A stretch of 64,000 nucleotides of DNA from an uncultured bacterium (GTDB lineage Bacteria; Bacillota_I; Bacilli_A; RFN20; CAG-826): assembly GCA_949285665.1 (NCBI GenBank), contig CASDYC010000001.1:768107-832106 (forward strand), in the 5' to 3' direction. Under the pieces are notes generated by a model. The model worked only from the letters and a program-made list of their open reading frames with translations. It did not search any database and had not been told where the DNA came from. Position 1 is the stretch's first letter; every line of letters starts with the position of its first letter. A program made the position numbers and the translations under genes. This document shows, in pieces, positions 3,119 through 20,808 of the stretch.

Positions 3119-3738
3119 TATTTATTTAATATATTTTCAATATAATTCAATGTTTCTTTACAAACTTCATCAAATGGTTTTGATGCATCAATTATATGAT
3201 ATCTGTCTTTATAAATATCGGCTAGTTTTAAAAATGATTCTCTAACTTTATTATGAAATTCAAGTTTTTCTAAATCTAATCTATTAACTTCTCGTTGAGA
3301 ATTTTGAGCTATTCTTTTTAATCCCAGTTTTGGATCAATATCAAATAATATTGTTAAATCTGGGAATGTTTTATCAGTTGCAAAATTATTAATGTTTAAA
3401 ATTTCATCAATTCCTAGGCCTCTTGCTCCACCTTGATAAGCTAGAGAAGAATCTAAATATCGGTCACATAAAACAATATAGCCATCTTTTAAACTAGGCC
3501 AAATCTTTTCAACTAAGTGTTGTCTTCGACTTGCAGCATATAATAAAGCCTCGGCTTTTGGATCAAGAGCGGTATTTGATTTATCTAAAATAATATTTCT
3601 AATTTGTTCTGAAATTGGAGTTCCGCCCGGCTCTCTTGTTTTAATTACTTTATATTTTTTTTCTTTTAATTTTTCATAAACATAATTTAAAACAGATGAC
3701 TTTCCGCTTCCTTCAGGTCCTTCAAATGTTATAAACAT
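3118..3738 (-). CDS. tmk: Thymidylate kinase
   Basis: 206 aa. Phosphorylates dTMP to dTDP with ATP. P-loop GPEGSGKSS at 7-15, the REPGGT substrate loop at 35-40, DRY motif at 92-94 (CDRYLDSSLAYQGG) and an RRQH lid segment at 71-74. Good SD (AAGGAG) before the ATG. In operon dnaX-recR-tmk-holB-ricT-rsmI, as in other Bacilli, but darA and yaaR, which separate tmk and holB in Bacillus, are missing. Functionally linked to the ThyX-like gene at 18970. Confidence 0.96.
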   Translation of the reverse strand: MFITFEGPEGSGKSSVLNYVYEKLKEKKYKVIKTREPGGTPISEQIRNIILDKSNTALDPKAEALLYAASRRQHLVEKIWPSLKDGYIVLCDRYLDSSLAYQGGARGLGIDEILNINNFATDKTFPDLTILFDIDPKLGLKRIAQNSQREVNRLDLEKLEFHNKVRESFLKLADIYKDRYHIIDASKPFDEVCKETLNYIENILNK

Positions 3739-18115: not shown

Positions 18116-18145
18116 AAAAAAAGAATTCATTTGAATTCTTTTTTT
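18116..18145 (+). terminator. Intrinsic terminator of secG
   Basis: A7-GAATTC (18116-18128), loop ATTT, GAATTC-T7 (18133-18145). Confidence 0.85.
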
Positions 18146-18170
18146 AATATAAATATATAAAATTTTAATA

Positions 18171-18186
18171 TATAATTTTCTTATTA
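18171..18186 (+). promoter_or_regulatory. folD promoter, leaderless configuration
   Basis: TATAAT at 18171-18176, nine bases, then the ATG at 18186. No SD in the pyrimidine-rich interval TTTCTTATT. Confidence 0.6.
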
Positions 18187-18980
18187 TGTTAGACATTAAA
18201 TCTTATGTAGTAATTAAAAAACAAGAAATAAAAGAAAAAATAAGTAAACTTGTTATCAAGCCATGTCTTTGCGTTGTTCAAGTTAATGATGATGAAGCAA
18301 GTTGTGCCTATATTAGAGGCAAGAAAAAAGATTGTGAAGAAGTTGGAATTATTTTTAAACTTATAAAATTAGATGTAAATACAAGTGAAAAAGAATTAAT
18401 TGGTTTAATTGATAAATTAAATTTGAATGATGAAATTAATGCAATTTTAGTTCAAATGCCACTTCCAAAACAAATTAATGAAGATAAAATTAAACAATCA
18501 ATAATTCCTAGTAAAGATGTTGATGGATTTAATAAATTATCAAATTATATTCCTTGTACCCCAAAAGGAATTATTGATTATTTAGATTATTTAAAATATG
18601 ATTTTAAGTCAAAAAATGCTGTTATTATTAATAGAAGTAATATTGTAGGAAAACCTTTAGTTAATTTATTATTAAATAAAGATTGTAATGTTGTTGTTTT
18701 ACATTCAAAAACAAGCAAAAAAGATATGCAATATTATTTAAATAATGCTGATTTAGTTATATCAGCTATTGGAAAAAAATATATTCTTAGTGAATATAAT
18801 TTTAAAAAAGATGCAGTTTTAATTGATGTTGGTATATCAAGAGTTGATGGGAAATTATATGGTGATTTTTTACCAAATTTAGATGTAAAACTTCAAACTC
18901 CAGTACCAGGCGGTGTTGGATTATTAACTAGATTAAGTTTATTAGAAAATGTAATGGAGGGAGTAAAAGATGGAATTTAA
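18186..18980 (+). CDS. folD: Bifunctional methylene-THF dehydrogenase/cyclohydrolase
   Basis: 264 aa. Interconverts 5,10-methylene-THF, methenyl-THF and 10-formyl-THF using NADP. Y42 and K46 (CAYIRGKKKDC) are the catalytic pair, then VQMPLPKQI, the DVDGF signature, PCTPKGI, the nucleotide-binding segment NRSNIVGKP (usually GRSxIVGKP) and TPVPGGVG near the end. Slightly shorter than the usual 280-290 aa. Overlaps the next gene by 11 bases, so the two form an operon; the product methylene-THF is the carbon donor for thymidylate synthesis. Confidence 0.95.
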   Translation: MLDIKSYVVIKKQEIKEKISKLVIKPCLCVVQVNDDEASCAYIRGKKKDCEEVGIIFKLIKLDVNTSEKELIGLIDKLNLNDEINAILVQMPLPKQINEDKIKQSIIPSKDVDGFNKLSNYIPCTPKGIIDYLDYLKYDFKSKNAVIINRSNIVGKPLVNLLLNKDCNVVVLHSKTSKKDMQYYLNNADLVISAIGKKYILSEYNFKKDAVLIDVGISRVDGKLYGDFLPNLDVKLQTPVPGGVGLLTRLSLLENVMEGVKDGI

Positions 18981-19560
18981 TATTTCTAATACATTTGTTT
19001 ATGGATTAGATCATGCAATTAAAGCAAGTGGAAATCCAATGAGAACAGTTATTGATGTAAGTGGAGTTACTGAAAAAGATATCAAAAGAGCTGTTAATTT
19101 AGGAAATTGTCGACAAGGTGAAGGCCATGATAACTACCTAAAAGGAATTCTAGTTCAATTAGATGTTACTGCTCCACTTTATTGGTGGAAACAAGCTCAA
19201 AGATATCACTGGTTTGACTATATATCAAGTCAGTCAACAATGCACTGTTTATTAAAATTTGATATTGAAAAACAATGTGTTAGTGAAACAAATAAAGAAA
19301 TACTTGGTATTCTTAAAAAATTAGTTGATGGATACAATCAAATTAATGATGATGATTCAAACAAAAAAACAAAATGGAGAGAATTAGTTGCAAGTCTTCC
19401 ATGCGGATTTTGTCTTGGGGCTTCAATGACAACTAATTATCAACAATTAAAAACAATGTTTAATCAAAGAAAATATCATAAATTAAAAGAGTGGCATATA
19501 TTTTGTGAGTGGTGTTTAACTCTTCCAAGATTTTCTGAATTAACTGGATGCAAATATTAA
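18970..19560 (+). CDS. ThyX-like protein (divergent flavin-dependent thymidylate synthase fold, putative)
   Basis: 196 aa. The segment TAPLYWWKQAQRYHWFDYIS followed by SQSTMH resembles the ThyX core, where a Q..RHR...N..S motif binds FAD and dUMP; aligned by the Q and first R, this protein has RYH instead of RHR and lacks a clear N..S.R. Similar proteins with PLYWWKE and NSxSTMH are widespread in gut Firmicutes and phages as hypothetical proteins; I infer kinship from pattern only. N-terminal GLDHAIKASGNPM and a Cys-rich end (CGFCLGA, FCEWCLTLPRF) are conserved-looking. It overlaps folD by 11 bases, which fits a role using methylene-THF. Whether it makes dTMP is unproven. Confidence 0.55.
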   Translation: MEFNISNTFVYGLDHAIKASGNPMRTVIDVSGVTEKDIKRAVNLGNCRQGEGHDNYLKGILVQLDVTAPLYWWKQAQRYHWFDYISSQSTMHCLLKFDIEKQCVSETNKEILGILKKLVDGYNQINDDDSNKKTKWRELVASLPCGFCLGASMTTNYQQLKTMFNQRKYHKLKEWHIFCEWCLTLPRFSELTGCKY

Positions 19561-19578: not shown

Positions 19579-20808
19579 ATGGTTAGTAAAACTTTATTAA
19601 AAAAATATGCAAATTTATTAATTAAAACTGGAATTAACGTTCAAAAAGGACAAGATGTCTTAATTTTTGCAGATGTCTGTGCAGTTGATTTTGTTCGTTT
19701 ATTAGTAAAAGAGGCTTATAAAGCAAAAGCAAATGAAGTAAGAGTTATTTGGGAAGATGATGAAATAACAAAAACTAGAATTAACATGGGACCATTAAAA
19801 ACTTTAGAAGAATTTACTTCAAGAGATAAGGCTGAAATGGATTATAGGGTTGAAAAAGTTCCATGTATGTTACATATTTTATCTTCATCCCCAGAATCAT
19901 TAAAGGGCCTCAATCAAGCAAAAAGATTAAAAATTATTCAAAAAAGAAATGTCTTTTTAAAACCTTATCGAGATGAATTAGATAATAAATATCAATGGTG
20001 TATTGCAGGATATCCAAGTAAAGAATGGGGCAAAGTTGTATATCCACATTTAAAAGCTAGTAAAGCTCAAGAAGAATTATTAAAACAAATATTGTTTGTT
20101 TCTAGAGTTTATGAAGATCCAAATTTAGAATGGGAAAAACATAATAATAATTTAATTAATCAATGTGAAAAATTAAATGCCTTAAATTTAGTATCACTTC
20201 ATTATAAATCAAGTAATGGGACTGACTTTAAAGTTGGTTTAATGAAAGAAGCAAATTGGCTTGGCGGAATGGAAATTACAAAAGATACTAAAATTAAATT
20301 TAATCCTAATATTCCAAGTGAAGAATGTTTTACTTCTCCAAAAAAAGGTGTTGCAGAAGGTATTGTTTACGCAACGAAACCACTTTCTTATAATGGAGAG
20401 TTAATTGAAGATTTTTATATTAGATTTAAAGATGGTAAAGCAGTAGAATGGGATGCTAAAAAGAATAAAGATTTATTAACTCATTTATTAAATGTTGATG
20501 AAAATGCTAAATATCTTGGAGAATGTGCTTTAATTCCATATGATTCTCCAATAAATAATACAAACATTTTATTCTATAACACTTTATATGATGAAAATGC
20601 ATCTTGCCATTTAGCTGTTGGAAGAGGATTTACAAACGTTATTAAAGATTATGATAAATATACAAATAAAGAATTAGAAGAAATGGGTGTTAATTCTTCT
20701 TCAAGTCATGTTGATTTTATGATTGGAAGTAAAGATTTAAGTATTATTGGAACAGACATCAATGGAAAAGAAATTGTAATTTTCAAAGATGGAAATTGGG
20801 CAATTTAA
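19579..20808 (+). CDS. M29 family aminopeptidase (AmpS/PepS-like)
   Basis: 409 aa. Leucyl/broad-specificity metallo-aminopeptidase with two metal ions. Family landmarks: LLIKTGINVQKGQDVLI at the N-terminus, SEECFTSPKKGVAEGIV (metal-ligand Glu residues), the AxCHLAVGRGF segment where most members have ASxHIA, and SSSHVDFMIGS near the C-terminus. Strong SD AGGAGG. It lies 18 bases after the ThyX-like gene and probably shares its transcript. Its 3' end overlaps the convergent yolD-like gene by four bases, and its terminator lies inside that gene. Confidence 0.92.
   Translation: MVSKTLLKKYANLLIKTGINVQKGQDVLIFADVCAVDFVRLLVKEAYKAKANEVRVIWEDDEITKTRINMGPLKTLEEFTSRDKAEMDYRVEKVPCMLHILSSSPESLKGLNQAKRLKIIQKRNVFLKPYRDELDNKYQWCIAGYPSKEWGKVVYPHLKASKAQEELLKQILFVSRVYEDPNLEWEKHNNNLINQCEKLNALNLVSLHYKSSNGTDFKVGLMKEANWLGGMEITKDTKIKFNPNIPSEECFTSPKKGVAEGIVYATKPLSYNGELIEDFYIRFKDGKAVEWDAKKNKDLLTHLLNVDENAKYLGECALIPYDSPINNTNILFYNTLYDENASCHLAVGRGFTNVIKDYDKYTNKELEEMGVNSSSSHVDFMIGSKDLSIIGTDINGKEIVIFKDGNWAI

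Follow-up and report, generated by a model that had tools for sequence, protein, structure and literature searches.

The window analysed here, a stretch of 64,000 nucleotides, carries on its plus strand an open reading frame (ORF) for a 196-aa protein that overlaps the 3' end of folD. The following features bear on its interpretation.

18186-18980, plus strand: folD, methylene-tetrahydrofolate (methylene-THF) dehydrogenase/cyclohydrolase, the overlapping upstream partner (NCBIfam FolD models, Pfam PF02882, conserved neighbourhood)
18956-18963, plus strand: Shine-Dalgarno-like sequence GGAGGGAG, 6 bases 5' of the ATG of the 196-aa ORF and within the 3' end of folD (read from the sequence)
18970-19560, plus strand: divergent protein of predicted ThyX fold, proposed thymidylate synthase, 196 aa (ORF list, predicted structure, residue alignment); in protein numbering, RYH (78-80), S87, S89, H92, N156 and R167
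19579-20808, plus strand: next gene 3' of the 196-aa ORF, presumably an M29-type aminopeptidase (ORF list; no NCBIfam match)

The 196-aa ORF starts with ATG and overlaps folD by 11 bases, as the preliminary description had stated and as the coordinates confirm, and translational coupling of the two genes is inferred only. Because stop-free homologs with 61-75% identity over almost the full length occur in other genera of the host's family, the ORF can be regarded as a real gene. The best NCBIfam FolD model matched the upstream gene with an E of 6.5e-67, and Pfam PF02882 matched at the corresponding place of the genome with an E of 2.0e-42; since the best NCBIfam score reached only 225.7 bits against a cut-off of 423, and all 25 of those shown scored below their cut-offs, the FolD of the window is itself divergent. 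An A/T-rich inverted repeat followed by a run of T, read by eye without a scan at 18121-18147, lies 5' of folD and resembles a terminator, which suggests that folD starts its own transcript. A tmk gene, which had also been claimed, lies on the minus strand near position 3735, identified by motif only (P-loop, REPGGTP and DRYLDSS).

The family of the 196-aa protein has no name in Pfam, NCBIfam or PHROGs. The protein gave no match at E<=10 in Pfam (PF02511 and PF00303 included) or in NCBIfam (TIGR02170 included), and it matched PHROG 6721, a phage family of unknown function, with an E of 2.2e-59 over residues 3-194; five other members scanned matched the same PHROG (E 2.4e-38 to 1.3e-82). Among the matches listed from the open-access literature, there was no published description of this family. 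The protein had been described as ThyX-like with RYH in place of the canonical RHR-x7-S motif, and this reading of the motif was borne out, with TAPLYWWKQAQRYHW and SSQSTMH present and RHR-x7-S absent.

As judged from profiles, the links between the family and ThyX are weak. Pfam Thy1 matched 12 of the 44 members of set A6 weakly (best E 4.6e-4) and was the sole family common to more than two of them among the weak Pfam matches; in another set, it matched 3 of 11 members (best E 9.5e-5), and TIGR02170 was matched by 1/11 (E 0.12). When sets A3, A2 and A6 were aligned by hhalign with a profile of 14 ThyX proteins, the probabilities were 1, 10 and 22%, respectively, with an E of 0.056 for A3 (over 33 columns), 0.0033 for A2 and 0.001 for A6. 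The N-terminal register for both A2 and A6 did not place RYH on RHR, and all three sets aligned the C-terminal block (P144, N156, R167 or equivalents) as in our manual register. A PDB sequence search with A2 found ThyX at an E of 0.057 or worse, ranked below chance primase matches, and no ThyX was found at E<=1 with A3 or A6. A single Pfam match of one member to the anti-DarT factor AdfA (E 0.023) was rejected as chance, and AdfA was not among the 22 Pfam families matched by the 44 A6 members at E<=0.1.

The evidence for the fold comes from structure prediction. Using A3, an alignment of 87 sequences, as input, AlphaFold2 gave a model with a pLDDT of 95.1 and a pTM of 0.88. In Foldseek, each of the best 50 of 154 PDB rows with E<=0.001 was a ThyX entry, with an E from 2.0e-7 to 1.9e-6 and a TM-score, normalised by query length, of 0.54-0.69, and VIA-align gave Z-scores of 11.0-13.8 for the first 47 of its best 50 rows, all ThyX-fold entries (ThyX, the atypical ThyX of C. 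glutamicum, and PolB), and 2.9 for the next row. When the model was compared with predicted viral proteins, the two best matches were uncharacterised, and of the other 15 rows with E<=0.001, the 11 that carry a name were all thymidylate synthases. On the basis of this model, the 196-aa protein is predicted to have the ThyX fold, and the ThyX-likeness suggested earlier is supported at the level of structure comparison.

The active site of ThyX appears to be partly kept and partly replaced in the 196-aa protein. In comparison with T. maritima ThyX, where number agreement over residues 52-84 was read by eye from the letters, G52-H53, A68-P69, Q75 and R78 carry the same numbers in both proteins. 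By the same reading, S87, S89, M91 and H92 stand, after one inserted residue, opposite ThyX E86, S88, R90 and Y91, and P144, N156 and R167 opposite P151, N163 and R174. Against the ThyX set, the C-terminal register was the best of 91 ungapped offsets (z 6.5) and the N-terminal register the second best (best one, z 2.7), so that the alignment supports the former and, less well, the latter. In ThyX, dUMP is activated by R174, with S88 and Y91 as proposed helpers of methylene transfer (PMC8316439), and FAD is held by the RHR motif (PMC6514825). With the roles of T. maritima R174 and R78 taken from these two sources, the dUMP-activating arginine and the flavin/dUMP arginine both have counterparts in the 196-aa protein, R167 and R78, respectively (87/87 in A3). 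ThyX R80, R90, Y91, R147 and R165 are not kept, their places being taken by H, M, H, V and Q; across A3, arginine occurs at the R80 place in 4/87 and at the R165 place in 29/87.

Across the 87 sequences of A3, R78, Y79, S87, S89, M91, H92, P144, N156, R167, H170 and W175 were each found in 87/87, H53 in 84/87 and H80 in 77/87, and position 75 was occupied by E in 46 sequences and by Q in 41; the invariant S89 stands one place later than the serine of RHR-x7-S. Since the A3 and A6 loci were gathered partly with peptide patterns containing Y79, S87, S89, M91, H92, R167 and H170, this conservation is partly built in. In A2, a set of 11 proteins found without residue patterns, S87, S89, P144, R167, H170 and W175 were invariant, Y79, M91, H92 and N156 nearly so, and R78 was present in 7/11; the protein of phage phiKSUM has L-Q-F instead of T-M-H. 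Because the RHR-x7-S motif and the PF02511/TIGR02170 profile tests fail, the protein is not a member of ThyX by definition, and we file it as a divergent ThyX-fold branch serving as thymidylate synthase.

The gene neighbourhood connects the family to folD. In 79 of the 80 related genome loci kept (311 were found), folD lies directly upstream on the same strand, overlapping the gene in 69/79 and 2-16 bases apart from it in the other 10; one relative (L057) has no folD upstream. Eight thyA loci of sister genomes contained no folD, none of six other tested neighbours from the window and no copy of the gene. As 197 of the 224 family genomes gave a folD match and yet none lay near these thyA loci, the pairing belongs to the gene, and the link to folD that the preliminary description pointed out holds across the bacterial family. 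A gene like that at 19579-20808 was present in 45/80 loci at variable distance, in a few on the opposite strand, and is not a constant direct neighbour. In more distant settings, the relative follows nrdD-nrdG in Ilyobacter polytropus and gyrB in Monoglobus (with one further gene before carA), and it lies near a dUTPase gene on Selenomonas plasmid pSRC4 and near nrdD-nrdG and a nucleoside triphosphate pyrophosphohydrolase gene in Desulfovibrio phage ProddE; no nucleotide-synthesis gene stands directly beside it in Cetobacterium or C. difficile phage AR1086-1.

The distribution of the gene also bears on its function. In the host genome, which measures 1.03 Mb and is 98% complete, there was no match to ThyX (PF02511), ThyA (PF00303) or dihydrofolate reductase (DHFR), which answers the earlier question of whether thyA or a canonical thyX is present. 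In a survey of 224 genomes of the host's family, most of which look like metagenome bins, the gene was found in 88 (as a distant copy in G015 and G121 and as a close copy in the other 86, in one of which it is partial), ThyA in 107, DHFR in 107 and ThyX in 4. The gene and ThyA occurred together only in G121, with its distant copy (Fisher p 9.4e-35, ignoring relatedness), and the same genome was the only one with the gene and DHFR; thus, ThyA and DHFR were each absent from 87/88 gene-bearing genomes, and ThyX was found in 0/88. ThyA was accompanied by DHFR in 106/107. Because the genes for ThyA and DHFR lie side by side, the lack of both counts in part as a single event. The absence of DHFR is as expected if dTMP is made in the ThyX way, without folate oxidation; organisms with thyX frequently lack folA, for which PMC9931769 gives an explanation. 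The gene and ThyA alternate within six genera (g7, g12, g17, g22, g24 and g26). In 14 control genomes, the ThyA search recovered its 9 and the ThyX search its 6. When only the 119 high-quality genomes were considered, the gene (63), ThyA (47) and ThyX (2) formed non-overlapping sets, so that 112/119 have exactly one synthase. Among 24 sampled genomes from other families of the order, ThyA was found in 11, ThyX in 12 and the gene in none. A canonical ThyX match instead of the gene was observed in G169, G244, G246 and G247, three of them in genus g53, and in G151 a ThyA match in two pieces lies inside a 562-aa frame (C79) in addition to a normal ThyA.

Thymidine kinase (TK) over the cut-off was absent from 55/88 gene-bearing genomes and present in 33/88 of these and in 5/107 ThyA genomes. 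For example, G240, a one-contig genome of 99% completeness, carries the gene without any match to ThyA, ThyX, DHFR or TK. Bacteria without thyA and thyX are reported to have tdk (PMC1971073). If the 196-aa protein is discounted, the host and many relatives would be left without a known route to dTMP. None of the three synthases was found in 26/224 genomes, 6 of which have TK, and these, together with the 33 gene-bearing genomes with TK, indicate that the clade includes cases of salvage, of gaps or of enzymes that escaped the searches. No synthase was found in seven of the high-quality genomes, and four of them (G093, G098, G161 and G198) lack TK over the cut-off; the presence of DHFR in G198 leaves room for a gap at thyA. 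In the host genome, one TK match fell just short of the cut-off (20.0 against 20.6 bits) and was disregarded; similarly scoring frames of some 340 aa coexist with a full TK in other genomes (G001, G046, G160 and G162), from which it was inferred to be a different protein, and three genomes whose rows were all of this sub-cut-off kind (G000, G005 and G161) were removed before the TK count.

Taken together, we propose that the 196-aa protein is the thymidylate synthase of its host, with a ThyX fold and a rebuilt active site, and we give this reading a probability of roughly 0.78; its activity and use of flavin are inferred. No activity data exist. In a group of gut bacteria with neither of the two known types of the enzyme, thymidylate is very probably made by the product of this gene, which current databases leave unnamed. 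The fold, the replacement of ThyA and the dispensable DHFR make it probable that the protein works like ThyX. Most likely by ThyX-type chemistry, a reduced flavin would take the methylene group from methylene-THF, pass it to C5 of dUMP and supply the reducing hydride, giving dTMP and THF, so that DHFR would be unneeded; formation of dTMP, dependence on methylene-THF and use of FAD and NAD(P)H are all inferred. FolD, from the overlapping upstream frame, would handle the same methylene-THF pool, and Tmk would then convert the product to dTDP. In the rebuilt site, R78 (the first RHR arginine), S89 (ThyX S88), N156 (N163) and R167, the putative dUMP-activating arginine (R174), are kept, while the rest of RHR is changed to Y-H, R90 to M91 and the proposed acid Y91 to H92. 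The role in thymidylate or folate metabolism suggested earlier is thus favoured by the fold, the exclusion of ThyA and DHFR, and the folD pairing, and the alternative offered with it, a flavoprotein without any remaining role in dTMP synthesis, is unlikely given this exclusion over 224 genomes.

Other explanations need to be weighed against this proposal. First, the protein could (hydroxy)methylate another pyrimidine nucleotide, acting like PolB on UMP or in the modification of phage DNA, with dTMP coming from elsewhere. PolB, a UMP/dUMP C5-methylase of polyoxin synthesis, has the same fold (Z 12.6, rmsd 2.6 over 176 residues, 10% identity), the residues of the dUMP site are changed, and the gene is abundant in phages; however, with ThyA in 1/88 and ThyX in 0/88 gene-bearing genomes, and no TK in 55 of these, no known source of dTMP would remain there, and we consider this improbable. 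PolB belongs to an antibiotic pathway (PMC7226160), unlike our gene, which is chromosomal, paired with folD and found in small genomes without ThyA. Second, thymidine may be imported and the protein may have another one-carbon role beside FolD, which would fit the conserved folD pairing, the genomes without any synthase and the higher frequency of TK in gene-bearing than in ThyA genomes. This is again poorly supported, and we think it quite improbable, since the gene replaces ThyA within genera, which is unexpected for a role unrelated to dTMP, and TK is absent from most gene-bearing genomes including G240, with the reservation that deoxynucleoside kinases of other families were outside the search. 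Third, mutual exclusion that merely reflects old lineage splits and says nothing of function can be given very little weight, because both states occur in six genera (without a tree-based count of switches) and no genome has ThyA plus a close copy of the gene, although related genomes are not independent and ThyA and DHFR move as a pair.

Compared with known systems, the proposed thymidylate synthase has several features of ThyX (PF02511 Thy1, TIGR02170): the predicted fold, the size, G-H at 52-53, the initial arginine of RHR (in the window protein's own branch), the LP...T.N...L......R block with the equivalent of R174, and the replacement of ThyA in genomes together with loss of DHFR. It differs in that RHR is replaced by RYH in branch I and mostly by TYK in branch II, R90 by M and Y91 by H, that R147 and R165 are lost, and that the Pfam and NCBIfam models miss it. 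ThyA, of a fold unrelated to that of ThyX, makes the product proposed here for the 196-aa protein, dTMP; it is present in sister genomes instead of the gene and makes dihydrofolate, so that it needs DHFR. Genome annotation reckons with ThyA and ThyX as the two sources of thymidylate, an essential DNA building block, and genomes without these and TK look like impossible auxotrophs; the family would fill this gap. If our proposal is true, the metabolism of many gut Bacilli that are still uncultured can be modelled more correctly, life without DHFR is explained and indifference to trimethoprim is predicted. The family also shows the extent to which the ThyX active site can change, and a likely function can be proposed for a common unknown gut-phage gene, PHROG 6721.

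Relatives are frequent among gut bacteria as well as phages, as had been claimed: they were seen not only in the 311 genome loci but also in viral stretches, at least 573 of 600 (query A2) and at least 581 of 600 (query A5) of which encode relatives; the true number is larger. Phages carry the RYH branch (I) and a second, very common branch (II) with DTYK...ANSTSTMHK (L214-L293, L031 and L019). In branch II (n = 23), position 78 is T in 20, Q in 2 and V in 1, position 80 is K in 23/23, and Y79, S87, S89, M91, H92, P144, R167, H170 and W175 are present in 23/23, a conservation that is partly built in by gathering loci with residue-containing patterns. The model of a branch II phage protein (pLDDT 94.5) matched with Foldseek E-values from 2.7e-8 and with VIA-align Z-scores of 12.0-15.4 for the first 47 of the best 50 rows, followed by 4.7, and this protein is also predicted to have the ThyX fold. 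Because this branch mostly lacks the first RHR arginine, R78 is not universal. Tentatively, and with less than even confidence, the family may be a third functional class among the thymidylate synthases, one that descended from the ThyX fold, with another catalytic set (Y79, S87, S89, M91, H92, R167, H170 and W175) and another way of holding flavin or dUMP, the main maker of dTMP in much of one gut bacterial family and in many gut phages, whose phage branch was able to lose the first RHR arginine. On viral contigs, with neighbour clusters each named after a single representative and near-duplicate contigs retained, RYH-branch neighbours include NrdD (19/80 loci) and dUTPase (10/80), and DTYK-branch neighbours include guanylate kinase (14/80), NrdD (10/80) and dUTPase (8/80). 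Single distant copies of branch II were observed in the family genomes G015 and G121.
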